Made by a program: the position numbers and the translations under genes | The notes under the pieces: generated by a model | Database searches by the model: none | The model's input: only the letters and a program-made list of their open reading frames with translations | Told to the model about the DNA's origin: nothing | DNA from: Anaerolineales bacterium | Lineage (GTDB): Bacteria; Chloroflexota; Anaerolineae; Anaerolineales; Villigracilaceae | Direction of reading: 5' to 3' | Assembly (NCBI GenBank): GCA_016789365.1 | Contig: JAEURH010000003.1 | Location: 27,342-91,341 of the forward strand | DNA: 64,000 nucleotides | Shown here: one piece after another, positions 1,472-38,945 of the stretch | Layout: every line of letters begins with the position of its first letter | Position numbering within the stretch: the first letter of the stretch is position 1

Positions 1472-4303
1472 TTACTTATTCTTTTTCGGTTTAGATTTAG
1501 TCACAACTTTTTTCTTCACAGCAGGTTTCTTGACTTGTTTCTTAACAACTGCTTTTTTAGCCTTAGCCTTTTTAGAGACTGTTTTCTTTGCCACTGAAAG
1601 TTTTTTCTTAGCCATTGCTTTCGGCTTTTTGCCTTCCGACTTCTGCTTCTTACCTACTGCTTTCTTTTTACCTACTACCTTCTTAGCAACTGCCTCTTGT
1701 TTAATCGCTTCTCGGCTACCAAACATCTCCACCCACGTCTCGTCCATTGACTTAACGCCCGCGCCATTCAAGTTATTATTTAATATTCCCCATTCACTGC
1801 TATTCACAAATCTAAAATCCATAAAAGCATGGCATTGATATGCGCCGAGTTCTACATACAAGCCACTTTCCCAAATTTCTTTACAAGAGCGGATATATTC
1901 CAATTGTGAGGCGTAATCTTTGAAAATGACAAATCCACTTTTTGGTAAGCCCAAACCTTCGGCTACTTGACTACGCTTTAATTTTCCGTTGGATTTGTCT
2001 AAGGCTGAAATTGAATTTTTAATCCAACCGCGTGTATCTGCAAACTTGTTGTGATAAATAATCAGTCCGCGTTCGTCACCAAGTTTGTTGGAATAGGCAA
2101 ACACGTTTTCATCTTTTCCGCCGTTGAGCAGATTAAAGTCGAAGAAAAGAAAATGCTGAACGTCAGCAAACAACTGTCGGTGGTGAAGAAGCGGGAAGAT
2201 TCTCCATTCGTGGGCTTGAATCAAATGTTCATCTTGCGTTTCATTTAATTTTGGACGGCGAAATTCCATGCCATATTTTTCGGTGAAGCCTTCAACTTGT
2301 CCGTGACCAAACATCGGCAAGCCGGGCAGTGTGGCAAGCAATGTGCATATTCCAAAATATTTATCGCCGTTGCCAAATTGTTCAATGGCTGTTTTTTCAT
2401 CGGGATTATTCATGAAGTTGACATAACGCTTAAGAATTTGCGGGTCAAACTCCAATGTGTTTTTGATTGCCATGCGATATTTTGAATTATCTTCATCACG
2501 AAGCATGTGCATAAACGCGGAGTTATAGACGCGATGCATTCCAAGCGTGCGCACAAAATAACCTTCCATTAACCAAAATGCTTCGGCAAGCAATAAAGTA
2601 TCTGGCACTTCTTGTGCAACTCTATCGACAACTTCACGCCAAAATTCATGCGGAATTTTTTCTTCAAACTCGGCTTTCGATAAACCAAATTGCGCGCGGG
2701 ATGGAATTGCTCCACCTGCGCCAGGTTCAGGAAACCATAAGCGTTGAATATGTTTTTTTGCAAGCGTCATTGCCGCATCAAAACGAATGACGGGGAAATT
2801 TCTAGCAACATGCAAGATGACTTGAATCACCGCTTCGCGGACTACGGGGTTGCTGTAATCAAGTTGGGCAGTATCATTCCACGGGAAAGATGTGCCATCG
2901 TTGCCGTGATAGATGTAACGCAAATCACCTGTTTTCAAATCACGGCGTTGAAAGACAACTGCCGCGTCAGTTTTATCGTAATAATGATCTTCGAGATGAA
3001 TGCTGACTCGCAAATCATCGGAAAGGTTTTCTGATTTGAATGAATAAGATGAATACGGTGAAAAAGGCGAAGATAAAAACCAATCGGGATGTTCAATCAC
3101 CCACTGCGAATCAATGCCCATGTGATTCGGCACCATGTCGGCAGATAAACGAATGCCTTTATCCCAAGCGCGTGTGCGCAAATTTTCTAACGCGCTCCAG
3201 CCGCCTAAATCATTGGCAATGTCATACGAATATAAAGAATAAGCAGAAGCAACTGCATCTGCTTGACCCATGCGTTGTTTTATTTTTTGTGAGGCTTTGC
3301 TTCGTTCCCACAAGCCGATTAACCATAAACCTGTAAAGCCACGCGATTTCAATAAATCTAATTCTTCATCAGGAATTTCGTTGAGGTATTTAATTTCACG
3401 ATTATATTTTTTAGAAAGTTGAGCAAGCCACACGTACGTATTTTTTGCTATCAAGACCAAACTTGGCATCCATGCTTGGTCTGGACTGTATCTTTCGTAT
3501 TCAGCATATTCCGCGCCAGAAAAATTGGGAACAACCGCTTCAGCAGTGAACGTGTCGGCTGGGTTCTGCTTGCGGATAATTTCTTCTTTGATGTAATCTA
3601 AGCCGCGTAAAATTCTGGCTGAAAATTCTTTACCAAGCAAACGCCCCCATTTTTCTAGCATAAATAACAATTGACCTTCTAATGAATCAGGTGAGGCGTT
3701 GATAGCACCCATCAAAATATCGTTTAATGATTCGCCATCCGATAAGCCTGGTTGATTTGAAAAGAAGTTTTGCAATAATGTCAAAACTTCTTTATACGGT
3801 GTAGGTTGTAAAGATGAATCATCGAATAAATCTAAATATGGCTTAATGGCTGGATTGTTATTGGCATTATGAATCAGCATCATTTCTTCGATGGCGGCGA
3901 AACGTACACCACGACCAAAATCTGCGGCGTTGGGCAACTTGGTGGAAAGATAAATGCCAGCGTTCATTTCCCCTTTGAACACGGCTTTGGGCGGAAATTC
4001 CTCTGTAAATTTGGTTAATATCAAATCATATTTTGAGCCGAGGTTAGACTGTAAATGTCCCATTGCTCGCCCCATGATGCCTGTGTAGCGGCTATGAAAA
4101 TGTTTGAGCAGGATGTGATAGGCTTCATCTAGCAAAGAGATGGCATAAAGGTCAGTAGCAGGTACCAAGTCAGAACGAAGCGCAGACATTTGAGCGGCAA
4201 AAGCCCGCGCGGATGTCAAATCTGTAAAGACCACATGCCCGTCTGGGCGAAAAAAATCTTGAGAAAAATTGTATTTAACGCGGGATTGACGGTTCGTGAG
4301 CAT
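1472..4303 (-). CDS. GH13 alpha-amylase-family protein with large N-terminal region and histone H1-like lysine tail
   Basis: This is a 943-residue protein. Residues about 1-290 are an alpha-helical region I do not recognise. From about residue 300 a GH13 (beta/alpha)8 barrel is visible: GLWLIGLWERS, DMVPNHMG (region I), RFDAAM with D509 as likely nucleophile, and LLAEAFW with E574 as likely acid/base, followed by PGLPMFGHGQ. Family knowledge predicts action on alpha-glucans or related oligosaccharides; substrate and subfamily cannot be told here. No signal peptide is seen, so it is probably cytoplasmic. The last 65 or so residues are almost entirely Lys, Ala and Val with some Ser (AKKKLSVAKKTVSKKAKAKK and similar), like histone H1 tails. 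A similar tail ends the aldehyde dehydrogenase at 37266-38945. The start is divergent from the kinase at 4357, 53 bp away. Confidence 0.85.
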   Translation of the reverse strand: MLTNRQSRVKYNFSQDFFRPDGHVVFTDLTSARAFAAQMSALRSDLVPATDLYAISLLDEAYHILLKHFHSRYTGIMGRAMGHLQSNLGSKYDLILTKFTEEFPPKAVFKGEMNAGIYLSTKLPNAADFGRGVRFAAIEEMMLIHNANNNPAIKPYLDLFDDSSLQPTPYKEVLTLLQNFFSNQPGLSDGESLNDILMGAINASPDSLEGQLLFMLEKWGRLLGKEFSARILRGLDYIKEEIIRKQNPADTFTAEAVVPNFSGAEYAEYERYSPDQAWMPSLVLIAKNTYVWLAQLSKKYNREIKYLNEIPDEELDLLKSRGFTGLWLIGLWERSKASQKIKQRMGQADAVASAYSLYSYDIANDLGGWSALENLRTRAWDKGIRLSADMVPNHMGIDSQWVIEHPDWFLSSPFSPYSSYSFKSENLSDDLRVSIHLEDHYYDKTDAAVVFQRRDLKTGDLRYIYHGNDGTSFPWNDTAQLDYSNPVVREAVIQVILHVARNFPVIRFDAAMTLAKKHIQRLWFPEPGAGGAIPSRAQFGLSKAEFEEKIPHEFWREVVDRVAQEVPDTLLLAEAFWLMEGYFVRTLGMHRVYNSAFMHMLRDEDNSKYRMAIKNTLEFDPQILKRYVNFMNNPDEKTAIEQFGNGDKYFGICTLLATLPGLPMFGHGQVEGFTEKYGMEFRRPKLNETQDEHLIQAHEWRIFPLLHHRQLFADVQHFLFFDFNLLNGGKDENVFAYSNKLGDERGLIIYHNKFADTRGWIKNSISALDKSNGKLKRSQVAEGLGLPKSGFVIFKDYASQLEYIRSCKEIWESGLYVELGAYQCHAFMDFRFVNSSEWGILNNNLNGAGVKSMDETWVEMFGSREAIKQEAVAKKVVGKKKAVGKKQKSEGKKPKAMAKKKLSVAKKTVSKKAKAKKAVVKKQVKKPAVKKKVVTKSKPKKNK

Positions 4304-35276: not shown

Positions 35277-35340
35277 AAGATAGTGAATAGTTATATTGAC
35301 CGCAGATAATAAATTGCCTGCTGTCAACATTCAAAAATCC

Positions 35341-36420
35341 ATGCCTGCAAACCCATTAACTACAAAAGATATTCAAGGGTCAGACCCGCTCGCTAAATTA
35401 TTTTTCAACGCGTTTAAGTTGAAATGGTTTGGCATGATTTTGTTTTTCATGTTTGCAGGTTTTTTGTATGGGTATGTCATCCCAACTTTATTAAGCATCT
35501 CCCCTGCTAGCGATTTAATTACGATTATCAACATTATTCTAGTATTCCCAATGGCGGGTTATTATTATGCTTATCAGCCAAAAAGTATTTTACGCATTTA
35601 CCAAAGCGTGACGCGCTTTTTCAAAGAAGAAAACTTAGACTCCATTCCATACGAAAAAATAAAAAAATGGCACGCTAAATCTATTTGGTGGATTCTCGGC
35701 ATTGCAATTGGCTTGGTCAGCGCAGGGTTTGGAGTGTTAAATGCTGTAGCAAACATCGGCACAAGTTGGGAAAATGCAAATTGGGTGCAAATTATTTTAG
35801 TATTTGGCACACGCTTCCTTGCTATGAGCATGATTGGCATGATTGTCACACGGCATATTGCTACATCTATGGCATTAACTGAACTCTTTCAATATACAGA
35901 ATTTCCGCTCACATTAGATACAGACAAAATCGAGGTATTCAGTACAGTAAAAAGATTTTCGCTTGAAATCATCGGCGTTGCCGCGATTATTGGATTAAAT
36001 TTAGGCTTGCAACCTATTGTGATTGAAGTACCTATCCCCGAATATATTTTTTATGTGGTGATGTATTTTATTTTAGTTCCAATTACTTTTTTTCTACCAT
36101 TATGGCAAGTACATCATCGCATGGTAGTGATAAAACAAAACATGCTCGATAAATTGCACAAAGATTATCAAGAAGAAGCCGAAAAGTTATACAACACGCT
36201 TGCCAAAGACACGAAAAAAGATTTATCCAGCACCTATCTCAAACAAACTGAAAGTATGATTTCGATTAAGCAGGCAATTGAACTGATTAACAAATCTCCC
36301 GATTGGCCCTTTGAAGGCACAATTTTTTATCGGCTCATTATTACCATTCTTTCGCCATTCTTTTTGGTCATCTTTGAAATTTTTATCAACATTATGAGTG
36401 ACTTTGTAATGGGTGGATAA
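35341..36420 (+). CDS. Polytopic membrane protein of unknown function
   Basis: I choose ATG 35341 (MPANPLTTKD); a TTG frame could start at 35296, and neither has a clear ribosome-binding site. The 359-residue product has about seven hydrophobic helices (for example WFGMILFFMFAGFLYGYVI, FGTRFLAMSMIGMIVTRHI, YVVMYFILVPITFFLPLW) and a charged roughly 80-residue loop with KQNMLDKLHKDYQEEAEKL before the last helix. I do not recognise the family. It lies downstream of the UMF1 transporter, 64 bp away. Confidence 0.75.
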   Translation: MPANPLTTKDIQGSDPLAKLFFNAFKLKWFGMILFFMFAGFLYGYVIPTLLSISPASDLITIINIILVFPMAGYYYAYQPKSILRIYQSVTRFFKEENLDSIPYEKIKKWHAKSIWWILGIAIGLVSAGFGVLNAVANIGTSWENANWVQIILVFGTRFLAMSMIGMIVTRHIATSMALTELFQYTEFPLTLDTDKIEVFSTVKRFSLEIIGVAAIIGLNLGLQPIVIEVPIPEYIFYVVMYFILVPITFFLPLWQVHHRMVVIKQNMLDKLHKDYQEEAEKLYNTLAKDTKKDLSSTYLKQTESMISIKQAIELINKSPDWPFEGTIFYRLIITILSPFFLVIFEIFINIMSDFVMGG

Positions 36421-36478: not shown

Positions 36479-36547
36479 GGACGCTGATTCACACAGAAAA
36501 CGCTGATTTTTTGCTTTTGTCAGCGCTATCAGCGTTTATCTGCGTCC
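36479..36547. repeat. Intergenic inverted repeat GGACGCTGAT / ATCTGCGTCC
   Basis: Ends ggacgctgat and atctgcgtcc pair, with repeated cgctgat / tcagcg units inside, so the element folds into a long imperfect hairpin. GCGTCC/TCAGCG elements of this type occur between genes in many environmental genomes. It lies between two convergent genes. Confidence 0.7.
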
Positions 36548-36577
36548 AAATTAAATTTTGGGTTAAGAGTGTTTTTA

Positions 36578-37111
36578 TTATTGTGTGTGGGTATCAAACA
36601 AATTTCTTAATTCTTCTTCCGAAACAAAGCCGATAAACTTTTGTATCACATTTCCACTTGGGTCTAAGAAATATAATTCAGGCTGATAGAAAAAACCTAA
36701 CTCACGTTGAAAAATTTGCGTGCGTGGGTCGTCTGCGTCTAAATAACTAAAAATCACTCGTCCAAAATATTCTGCTTCGAGCCTATGAACCATAGGCGCC
36801 ATGGTGCGGCAGGTAAATCAGGTAAAGCGGAAAAATTCAATTAACTGATATTGACCCGATGCTAGTGAAACTGTAGTTGGGTCTGTGGCATGCAAATCTG
36901 CTCCACGAGATGTGGCTACAGGTTGCACCGCTGGGATTTGTGTCGCTTCAACATTGGGGACAGTTGTTTCTGTTACTACAACATTGTCAATGGCTGATGC
37001 TGTGGGCGGAAGGACAAGTGCCTCTTGGGTTGCAGGGGCTGGGGCGCAAGAGGCGATAAGTAGTACAGTCACCAAGAACACGGTCAAGAAAAAGAGGCGG
37101 AATTTCATCAT
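36578..37111 (-). CDS. Probable selenoprotein: thioredoxin-like lipoprotein with in-frame TGA at the first redox cysteine (U-x-x-C)
   Basis: One continuous frame from ATG 37111 (37108 is equally possible) to TAA 36578 is interrupted only by TGA at 36818-36820. Read through, it encodes 177 residues. A signal peptide ends in the lipobox LIASC, then a Thr/Val/Pro-rich stalk, then a thioredoxin fold: QYQLIEFFRFT-U98-FT-C101-RTMAPMVHRLEAEYFG, YLDADDPRTQIFQ, and YQPELYFLDPSGN. The expected motif is W-C-x-x-C; here the TGA sits exactly at the first cysteine and the second is kept. A perfect 7-bp hairpin with loop G-U-U begins 20 nt after the TGA (separate entry). Both halves keep good coding quality, against a dead gene. 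It would be a lipid-anchored extracytoplasmic thiol (selenol) oxidoreductase. The alternative is a nonsense mutation or sequencing error. Confidence 0.72.
36781..36797 (-). promoter_or_regulatory. Candidate bacterial SECIS hairpin
   Basis: In the mRNA GCCUAUG-GUU-CAUAGGC forms a perfect 7-bp stem with a 3-nt loop whose first base is G. There are 20 nt between the UGA and the stem, and the loop G is 28 nt after the UGA. Known bacterial SECIS elements have a small apical loop with G in its first two positions at about 16-37 nt from the UGA, so spacing and loop both fit. Confidence 0.65.
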
Positions 37112-37205
37112 ATTGGTTTTAATGATACTGTTACATCTTATCATCTTACAAAAACTCATAAAATTCTAACCTGCTTTGACGCGGCACACATCCTACGCTA
37201 TACTC

Positions 37206-37265: not shown

Positions 37266-38945
37266 ATGGCAGATTTCAAACTGACTTACTCGACGATGTT
37301 CAACCCGCCCGAAGTTTTGCATACTGGTTTTGAAAAAGCAATTGCAAACCTGAAAAGCAATATGGGCAAAGAACATGCAATGTTTATTGATGGCAAAGAT
37401 GTTTTTGCCGATGAAAAATTTGAAGACCGTTCACCTGTGAACACCGATTGGGTTTTGGCTGTGATGCAAAAAGGCAACGCTTCACATGCAAAAATGGCAA
37501 TTGATGCGGCGCGTAAGGCTTTTCCATCATGGAGTAGAACGCCATGGCAAAAGCGCGTGCAATTGGTTCGTAAAGCCAGCGCATTAATTGAAAAAAGAAT
37601 TTTTGAATTAGGCGCGGCAATGTCTTTAGAAGTTGGTAAGAATCGTATGGAAGCATTGGGCGATGTGCAAGAAACCGCAGATTTGATGTACTTCCCCGCT
37701 CAAATGATGGAAGAAAATAATGGGTTTGTAAAACCGATGTTGAAAGACCCATTGGTTGGTTTTGATTCAACAAATACATCTGTCTTGCGACCTTATGGCG
37801 TGTGGTTAATTATTTCTCCATTCAATTTTCCATTTGCGTTGACGGGTGGTCCAACTGGCGCGGCACTTGTTGCTGGCAATACTGTTGTGATTAAACCCGC
37901 TTCGGACACGGCATGGATTGTACGCTTGTTTGTTGAATGTTTACGAGATGCAGGCATTCCAAATGGTGTGGTGAATTTTGTAACAGGTCCAGGTTCTACA
38001 TTAGGTCAAGCCTTAGTAGATAGCCCTGAAATTGATGGTGCAACTTTCACTGGCTCATTTGATGTGGGCATGAAACTGTATCGTGATTTTGCGAATCGCA
38101 ATTACATTCGCCCTGTTATTTTGGAACTTGGTGGTAAAAACCCAGCCATTGTTTCAAAGAATGCAAATCTCGAAGATGCGGCAACTGGGATTTATCGTTC
38201 AGCCTTTGGTTTACAAGGACAAAAATGCTCCGCCGCTTCTCGCGTGCTTGTAGAGGATGCTGTTTACGATGAATTGGTTGCTAAGTTGAAAGAAAAAGTG
38301 GATGCACTTGTGATTGGTGACCCAACCGAACGTGCAACATATTTAGGTCCAGTGATTAATCAAAATGCTTATAACGAATTCAAAGGTTATACAGAAGAAA
38401 TCAATCAAGCAGGTGCAACTTTCTTGACAGGTGGCAATGTCAAATCTGGTGGCATGTATAACAAAGGCTTTTATTGTGAGCCGACTTTCGTGACAAATTT
38501 ACCTTTCAATCACCGCTTGTGGAAACATGAAATGTTCTTGCCGATTAGCATGATTGGCAAGGTCAGCAATTTAGATGAAGCGATGCAAATTGCGAACGAT
38601 GTGAATTACGGGTTAACGGCTGGTTTCTACGGAAGCCAAAAAGAAACCGAATGGTTCTTTGACAATATCCAAGCAGGCGTAACTTATGCAAATCGCCCAC
38701 AAGGGGCAACAACTGGCGCGTGGCCTGGCTATCAACCTTTCGGTGGCTGGAAAGGCTCTGGCGCAAGTGGCAAAAATGGCGGTGGATATTATTATGTTCA
38801 GTTGTATATGCACGAGCAGATTCAAACATCCGTCAAACATGCTCCAGTGAAGGCAAAAGCCGCAAAGAAGAAAGCAGTTGTCAAAAAGAAAGTGGCTAAG
38901 AAAGTCGTCAAGAAGACAGCAAAGAAATCAGGCAAGAAGAAATAA
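37266..38945 (+). CDS. Aldehyde dehydrogenase (1-pyrroline-5-carboxylate dehydrogenase-like) with lysine-rich C-terminal tail
   Basis: A 559-residue NAD(P)-dependent aldehyde dehydrogenase. E287 in LELGGKNP is the general base and C321 in GQKCSA the catalytic thiol; ISPFNFPFALTGGP and FTGSFDVG are cofactor-binding segments. Close to the end, ANRPQGATTGAWPGYQPFGGWKGSG resembles L-glutamate-gamma-semialdehyde (P5C) dehydrogenases, so oxidation of P5C to glutamate in proline catabolism is the likely role. The last 35 or so residues (KAKAAKKKAVVKKKVAKKVV and on) are a histone H1-like Lys/Ala/Val tail, not part of the enzyme fold; a similar tail ends the GH13 protein at 1472-4303. AAGGAG precedes the ATG. 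A terminator follows. Confidence 0.9.
   Translation: MADFKLTYSTMFNPPEVLHTGFEKAIANLKSNMGKEHAMFIDGKDVFADEKFEDRSPVNTDWVLAVMQKGNASHAKMAIDAARKAFPSWSRTPWQKRVQLVRKASALIEKRIFELGAAMSLEVGKNRMEALGDVQETADLMYFPAQMMEENNGFVKPMLKDPLVGFDSTNTSVLRPYGVWLIISPFNFPFALTGGPTGAALVAGNTVVIKPASDTAWIVRLFVECLRDAGIPNGVVNFVTGPGSTLGQALVDSPEIDGATFTGSFDVGMKLYRDFANRNYIRPVILELGGKNPAIVSKNANLEDAATGIYRSAFGLQGQKCSAASRVLVEDAVYDELVAKLKEKVDALVIGDPTERATYLGPVINQNAYNEFKGYTEEINQAGATFLTGGNVKSGGMYNKGFYCEPTFVTNLPFNHRLWKHEMFLPISMIGKVSNLDEAMQIANDVNYGLTAGFYGSQKETEWFFDNIQAGVTYANRPQGATTGAWPGYQPFGGWKGSGASGKNGGGYYYVQLYMHEQIQTSVKHAPVKAKAAKKKAVVKKKVAKKVVKKTAKKSGKKK

Follow-up and report, generated by a model that had tools for sequence, protein, structure and literature searches.

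A predicted lipid-anchored thioredoxin-fold selenoprotein with an in-frame UGA in Anaerolineales

Does the TGA codon interrupting a thioredoxin-like reading frame in this Anaerolineales genome mark a damaged gene, or is it read as selenocysteine (Sec)? A sequence-only reading of the window, by which we mean the whole stretch of 64,000 nucleotides analysed, had judged Sec more likely than a random nonsense mutation. This judgement is supported by the Sec machinery of the genome, by conservation of the TGA among relatives and by a covarying hairpin. From these comparisons we predict that the gene almost certainly encodes an exported, lipid-anchored thioredoxin-fold selenoprotein in which UGA is read as Sec.

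The interrupted gene and its predicted product

The gene and its surroundings comprise the following features.

36578..37111, minus strand: predicted selenoprotein coding sequence, 177 residues with UGA read as Sec, TAA stop at 36578-36580 (read-through translation; purifying selection past the TGA)
37049..37111, minus strand: signal peptide, residues 1-21 (by translation)
37046..37057, minus strand: lipobox I-A-S-C, with Cys22 predicted to be lipidated (pattern match)
36581..36898, minus strand: thioredoxin domain (Pfam PF00085, AlphaFold, Foldseek)
36818..36820, minus strand: UGA codon, predicted Sec at residue 98, the first residue of UxxC (TGA conserved at the aligned place)
36809..36811, minus strand: codon of the resolving cysteine, Cys101 of UxxC (column invariant in alignments A1, 32 rows, and A3, 43 rows)
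37266..38945, plus strand: divergent aldehyde dehydrogenase gene (PF00171, E 1.1e-131)

The positions given by the sequence-only reading for the two ends of the gene (36578 and 37111) and for the TGA (36818-36820) all hold, with the ATG at 37111 and the TAA at 36578-36580, and the strand, which it did not give, is minus. The frame had been described as open except for the TGA, with the downstream part in register; indeed, the read-through translation of 37159-36578 contains a single in-frame TGA and stays open for 79 codons past it. An ordinary gene caller had been expected to report two fragments, and translation table 11 does yield two separate open reading frames (ORFs), 36818-37159 and 36578-36802. 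From the likely start at 37111, the product of 177 residues consists of a signal peptide, the lipobox I-A-S-C, a linker rich in Pro, Thr and Ala, and the thioredoxin domain. The signal peptide with a lipobox cysteine that characterizes bacterial lipoproteins is thus predicted in the window protein, and, counting paralogues, 89 of 108 homologue rows show a hydrophobic stretch followed by a lipobox pattern; the other 19, sorted by eye, are sequences cut by contig ends or upstream stops, near-lipobox variants outside the pattern (L-F-A-C, for example) and paralogues that have a membrane segment at the N-terminus.

The thioredoxin-fold character noted by the sequence-only reading is borne out by family and structure comparisons. 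The best Pfam model for the predicted selenoprotein is PF00085 (read-through protein, E 8.4e-7, 29.4 bits against a gathering cut-off of 23.5), and a sequence-profile comparison placed thioredoxins and protein disulfide isomerases at the top among solved structures. An AlphaFold model was computed with the window protein plus 42 rows from named relatives as input; its pLDDT averages 92-98 per block beyond about residue 71, and U98 lies just ahead of a helix spanning residues 99-114. A conserved proline opposite the redox motif has its role in the thioredoxin fold; in the model the redox motif likewise opens the first helix of the domain and a proline faces it, Q143-P144 being invariant in A3 (43 rows). 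Nearly all Foldseek matches among those listed are thioredoxins, and the top PDB entry is 2o85, a mutant thioredoxin of Staphylococcus aureus (E 2.9e-8; TM 0.80 when normalised to the target length).

Within the domain, the motif reads T-U-F-T-C, and homologues carry Cys at the place of the TGA, which agrees with the claim that the codon replaces the reactive cysteine. The classical thioredoxin motif is WCGPC, unlike the (W/T)-U-x-x-C of the present family, and the predicted selenoprotein reaches only about 30 bits with the NCBI thioredoxin equivalog TIGR01068, which demands 96.8. Three families match the window protein with E no higher than 0.001, and 11 families match the 43 A3 members with E no higher than 1e-5; none of these is a selenoprotein-named NCBIfam model.

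The frame past the TGA is under purifying selection, with dN/dS of 0.09-0.25 in the five of eight comparisons in which dS could be computed (0.086 against L021, 0.163 against L022, 0.247 against L023, 0.219 against L024 and 0.143 against L036); the other three downstream comparisons were saturated, and upstream of the TGA dS was computable in seven of eight.

As to the neighbourhood, of the 80 named loci, some of which are cut by contig ends, 48 have a homologue of the divergent aldehyde dehydrogenase gene on the strand opposite to the thioredoxin gene; there is no clear functional link, and the association may be just shared gene order. Other clusters of neighbours include overlapping ORFs. 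An ORF of 374 residues at 35296-36420, adjoining an Atg22-like MFS gene, has homologues in nine of the 80 named loci and matched no Pfam or NCBIfam family at E 0.001.

Conservation of the TGA codon and the selenocysteine machinery

A search with the read-through protein covered 151 genomes (its own and 150 relatives), 114 of which gave a match at E up to 1e-5, some of these being merely ordinary thioredoxins. Every TGA-bearing match and every match of at least 60 bits was taken for alignment, giving 108 stretches, in which the aligned place is occupied by TGA in 95, Cys in 11 (eight orthologue and three paralogue rows), Ala in one and Leu in one; the protein ends 72-91 residues past this place in all 108. 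Counted per genome and without paralogues, 88 genomes have the Sec form (TGA), eight have Cys, one has a frameshifted copy and 54 have no orthologue. Of the order's 15 coded families (f1-f15), 11 include genomes with the Sec form. Close relatives keep the TGA and more distant ones carry Cys, i.e. the Cys/Sec alternation that had been proposed as a check of the reading is found, and the disrupted or non-Cys state in close relatives that had been named as evidence against it is not (TGA in 88 genomes, Cys in eight). Among the best 80 of 172 relatives in named GTDB genomes, TGA occurs in 77 and TGT in three; these are mostly Anaerolineales, Anaerolineae or Chloroflexi bacteria, which overlap with the set of 151 genomes and are not independent of it.

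Two of the aligned rows deserve a separate remark. The Leu row (L115:786-1121, genome G104) has an intact TGA and, judged by eye, a one-base deletion a few codons on, which makes the copy appear to be an assembly error or a recent pseudogene. The Ala row comes from tandem thioredoxin copies in G140 (L085:2137-2466 and 2717-3052), the second with TGA and the first degenerate, with Ala and Ser at the redox places. The gene is evidently dispensable, since 54 of the 151 genomes gave no orthologue, including three of the same genus listed as more than 95% complete (G012, G039 and G052).

All four genes that the sequence-only reading had suggested looking for, selA, selB, selD and that of tRNA-Sec, are present in the window's assembly, each above its cut-off: tRNA-Sec scores 67 bits (gathering 47) and has the anticodon TCA according to ARAGORN, SelB scores 348 bits, SelA 537 and SelD 369. 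The genome is a draft in 398 contigs with an estimated contamination of 4.3%, and each of the four genes is on a contig of its own; contamination is unlikely to account for them, because among the 56 congeneric genomes searched besides this one 53 have SelB above cut-off and 46 have tRNA-Sec at 53 bits or more. The SelD gene (L018, G000:C221:22247-23182) itself contains one in-frame TGA, in A-G-U-A-S-K, and a 7-bp hairpin with a GUU loop 26 nt past it; UxxK is the motif listed for SelD in the part of PMC13188914 drawn on here.

When presence is defined as SelB above cut-off and tRNA-Sec at 53 bits or more, 73 of the 88 Sec genomes have both, 13 have one of the two and two have neither, the last being G014 and G017, which are 71% and 78% complete. 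Five of the eight Cys genomes, all from family f9, have neither, and three have both, as expected if other selenoproteins need the machinery. The Sec and Cys genomes differ in having either component with a Fisher p of 1.8e-5, the rows being related. On one unsure tree of 98 rows there were at least three changes between Sec and Cys, whichever their direction.

Under the ordinary code this family, present in 88 of the 151 genomes, falls apart into two ORFs, which suggests that selenium use in these bacteria is probably under-read. The pattern of Sec, Cys and absence alongside SelB kept or lost offers a natural series from which to ask what selenium buys a thioredoxin.

The hairpin downstream of the UGA

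The hairpin described by the sequence-only reading has the geometry claimed for it: GCCUAUG-GUU-CAUAGGC begins 20 nt past the UGA and the loop G is the 28th nucleotide.

36781..36797, minus strand: SECIS-like hairpin, 7 bp, loop GUU (MFE -7.9 kcal/mol; conserved pairing; RNAalifold)

It had been placed within the range of bacterial SECIS elements, rightly so: the bSECIS model as outlined in PMC13188914 specifies a stem of 4-16 bp, a loop of 3-9 nt with G in the first two places, a loop 16-37 nt from the UGA and an MFE of at most -7.5, and the window hairpin, with 7 bp, the loop GUU, 27 nt and -7.9 kcal/mol, falls inside all four limits. The weight put on this lone hairpin was too high, given its ordinary folding z-scores (-0.38, -1.20 and -0.14, i.e. 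no significant stability) and the high chance rate in the window, where 353 of 2556 TGA triplets have a stem of at least 6 bp, and 148 one of at least 7 bp, with a loop G at the allowed spacing. Of 20,000 random synonymous recodings, 29% produced such a stem of at least 6 bp and 19% one of at least 7 bp. Because the measured chance rate is high, we did not use the lone hairpin as evidence. A search of 36500-37200 against Rfam found no SECIS family and three weak matches, all below their gathering scores.

Conservation of the hairpin in relatives was another of the proposed checks, and the pairing is kept, with compensatory changes. For the helix formed by columns 24-29 with 35-40 (the UGA being 1-3), 99.2% of the cells are paired across 84 distinct Sec-form sequences including that of the window, against 12-48% for slid versions of the helix, and two-sided changes occur in four of the six pairs, in 30 cells. 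None of 500 shuffles reached values as high for cells paired, cells changed on both sides or the covariation score; two other measures were not extreme, pairs with a two-sided change and further pair types being matched in 32 and 236 of the 500, respectively. RNAalifold finds the same helix unprompted in these 84 sequences. The conservation of the hairpin across relatives is far beyond chance.

The coupled changes link codon positions with no obvious reason at the protein level. In pair 25-39, the first base of a Pro (CCN) or Ser (UCN) codon is coupled with the third base of a Gly or Arg codon; in pair 27-37, the third base of the Pro/Ser codon with the first base of Arg AGG or Gly GGN; and in pair 28-36, the first base of a Met, Ile or Val codon with the third base of His CAU/CAC. 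On the unsure tree, which comprises 98 rows including one paralogue, uses few columns, among them the hairpin's own codons, and has 15 of 95 inner branches starred, the minimal numbers of pair-state changes are seven for 25-39, seven for 27-37, eight for 28-36 and six for 24-40. Sign tests on the starred branches did not reach significance, and the number of independent compensatory events is uncertain because few branches are well supported.

The stem also follows the presence of Sec. In the 85 distinct Sec windows (the 84 sequences and one paralogue) the loop invariably has G-U, and the six-pair stem is complete in 81 of them and in none of the eight Cys orthologues; among the named loci, 72 of the 77 TGA rows and none of the three Cys rows have the full stem. 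This link is clean among orthologues only, since the eight additional rows of paralogues include a Cys form with all six pairs (L120), and their five Sec rows have two to five of the six. The full stem of L120 reflects either a recent Sec-to-Cys change or chance.

A UGA in a conserved frame, the Sec machinery, homologues with Cys and a bSECIS are genomic marks of a bacterial selenoprotein, and all four are found here. The default interpretation of a lone in-frame stop is nevertheless a pseudogene or a sequencing error, in which case the TGA would be a Cys codon turned into a nonsense codon, genuinely or only in the data, and a draft genome in 398 contigs may seem to invite it. We regard this as extremely improbable in view of the dN/dS values past the TGA in the five unsaturated comparisons and of a tail that keeps to 72-91 residues in every one of the 108 rows; sequencing error is untenable when 88 of 151 genomes share the TGA at this place. 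There is next to no chance that the TGA ends a short lipoprotein and that the hairpin and the downstream frame serve otherwise. Regulated termination at low Sec supply would be possible, but nothing beyond the signal, the linker and the first strands is encoded upstream, both portions are required for the predicted fold, and purifying selection acts in register on the downstream frame.

The frame would likewise be kept if a suppressor tRNA or a changed code had UGA decoded as cysteine, tryptophan or another standard residue, and Cys does occupy the place in distant homologues. We consider such decoding very improbable, however: one of seven neighbouring ORFs examined ends in TGA (the other six in TAA), which indicates that TGA is apparently still a stop, the codon sits at the redox cysteine in a genome equipped with SelA, SelB, SelD and tRNA-Sec, and the covarying hairpin is maintained in orthologues with Sec and incomplete in those with Cys. 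Decoding of the UGA as Sec within a single exported protein is the reading we adopt in what follows.

Proposed mechanism, related proteins and known systems

We infer the incorporation of Sec in vivo, the lipidation, the redox direction, the substrates and the electron donor along the following lines. SelB carrying Sec-tRNA-Sec would bind the hairpin 20 nt past the UGA, leading to selenocysteine at residue 98; following export by the signal peptide, the lipid on Cys22 would hold the domain at the outer face of the cytoplasmic membrane. There Sec98 of the U-x-x-C motif would attack and Cys101 would resolve the mixed selenosulfide. Envelope proteins would be the targets, their disulfides, or other oxidised sulfur or peroxide groups, most likely being reduced; we prefer a reductase role because Sec favours nucleophilic attack. 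Recharging would probably proceed via a membrane electron carrier of the CcdA/DsbD type. The genome contains homologues of DsbD_TM/CcdA (62.6 bits, cut-off 27.1) and of VKOR (89.8 bits, cut-off 27.5), and parts of a reducing and of an oxidising arm are hence both present. Such a protein would carry selenocysteine on the surface of the membrane, a less expected site for this residue given export and oxidation.

Several related genes were encountered in the same searches. Five genes (L250, L251, L252, L262 and L263) in three genomes (G124, G136 and G099) of the genus g35 have the motif W-U-x-x-U, each with two TGA codons and, after these, a shared hairpin CCCGUCGUGAACGGG. Their identity past the first U ranges over 55-89%, all five have a lipobox-like start as judged by eye, and the two that were tested have PF00085 as their best Pfam match. 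The loop of their hairpin starts 26 and 17 nt past the two UGAs, which are 9 nt apart, both distances lying inside the 16-37 nt range. In 400 genomes of the order, these five were the sole two-TGA places among the matches listed (E up to 1e-12); two other candidates with two TGA, in G435:C22 and G058:C50, turned out to lack the UxxU motif. Another family of thioredoxins, mostly VLLEFQSPY-U/C-x-x-C and with an N-terminal membrane segment (L071:594-917, L122, L124, L243 and L244), has a TGA followed by a stem and includes Cys forms (L118-L120). More distant genomes of the phylum contain thioredoxin-like genes with TGA at the first redox Cys (L242 and L245-L249), some with a lipobox and each, by eye, with a stem past the TGA.

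The envelope redox system of Chloroflexota may comprise several anchored selenothioredoxins, namely the lipoprotein family, the VLLEFQSPY-U-x-x-C paralogues and, in one genus, a W-U-x-x-U lipoprotein with one hairpin serving two UGAs, a proposal to which we give an even chance. If it is true, the W-U-x-x-U lipoprotein would be a diselenide thioredoxin outside the cytoplasm, and the UxxU paralogues offer a test case for one SECIS decoding two UGAs.

Family f13, which may be Anaerolineaceae, gave weak matches (E 1e-12 to 1e-11) in eight of its nine genomes and none in the ninth. According to PMC4959059, Anaerolinea thermophila UNI-1 has kept SelB although it lacks Sec dehydrogenases; the idea that the present protein accounts for this was set aside, the f13 matches being weak. 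The same paper reports Sec formate dehydrogenases in Anaerolineales, and a tally in PMC1794560 counts three Chloroflexi selenoproteins. PMC13188914 (2026) recognizes 119 selenoprotein families or subfamilies; its text contains no word starting with Chloroflex, Anaerolin or lipoprotein. A lipid-anchored Chloroflexota family is likewise absent from the portions used of PMC9312934 and PMC2398784, and the terms looked for in PMC12013277 did not occur there. Among the matches listed from the open-access full-text literature, no paper on a lipid-anchored Sec thioredoxin family was found. We file the lipid-anchored Sec thioredoxin as a new family inside the already known Sec thioredoxin class.

TlpA and DsbE proteins are exported disulfide reductases. 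The present family shares UxxC with the TlpA-like and DsbE-like thiol:disulfide interchange selenoproteins (PF13098, cd02966), and the DsbE model recognizes 25 of the 43 A3 members with E no higher than 1e-5; unlike these proteins, it has PF00085 as the best Pfam match of the window protein and nearly exclusively thioredoxins among the Foldseek matches listed. UxxU is known from a Prx-like family (PF00578), the metal-binding NF041115 and the FmdB family, as entered in Table 1 of PMC13188914, and from Prx-like 2, according to an entry in PMC2398784. The five g35 paralogues resemble these proteins in having two Sec in one redox motif, and differ from those listed in their best match to PF00085 (two tested) and in a lipoprotein-like N-terminus in all five.

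The sequence-only reading had treated Sec-containing thioredoxin-like proteins as a known class, correctly, for Table 1 of PMC13188914 marks thioredoxin PF00085 with UxxC as experimentally verified (PF00085 being listed there only with UxxC and one Sec), and what is added here is a lipid-anchored family. With that verified Sec thioredoxin, as far as its table entry goes, the present protein shares the predicted thioredoxin fold, the UxxC motif with an attacking Sec and a UGA followed by a hairpin of the bacterial SECIS type; it is set apart by its predicted exporting signal peptide and lipobox anchor.
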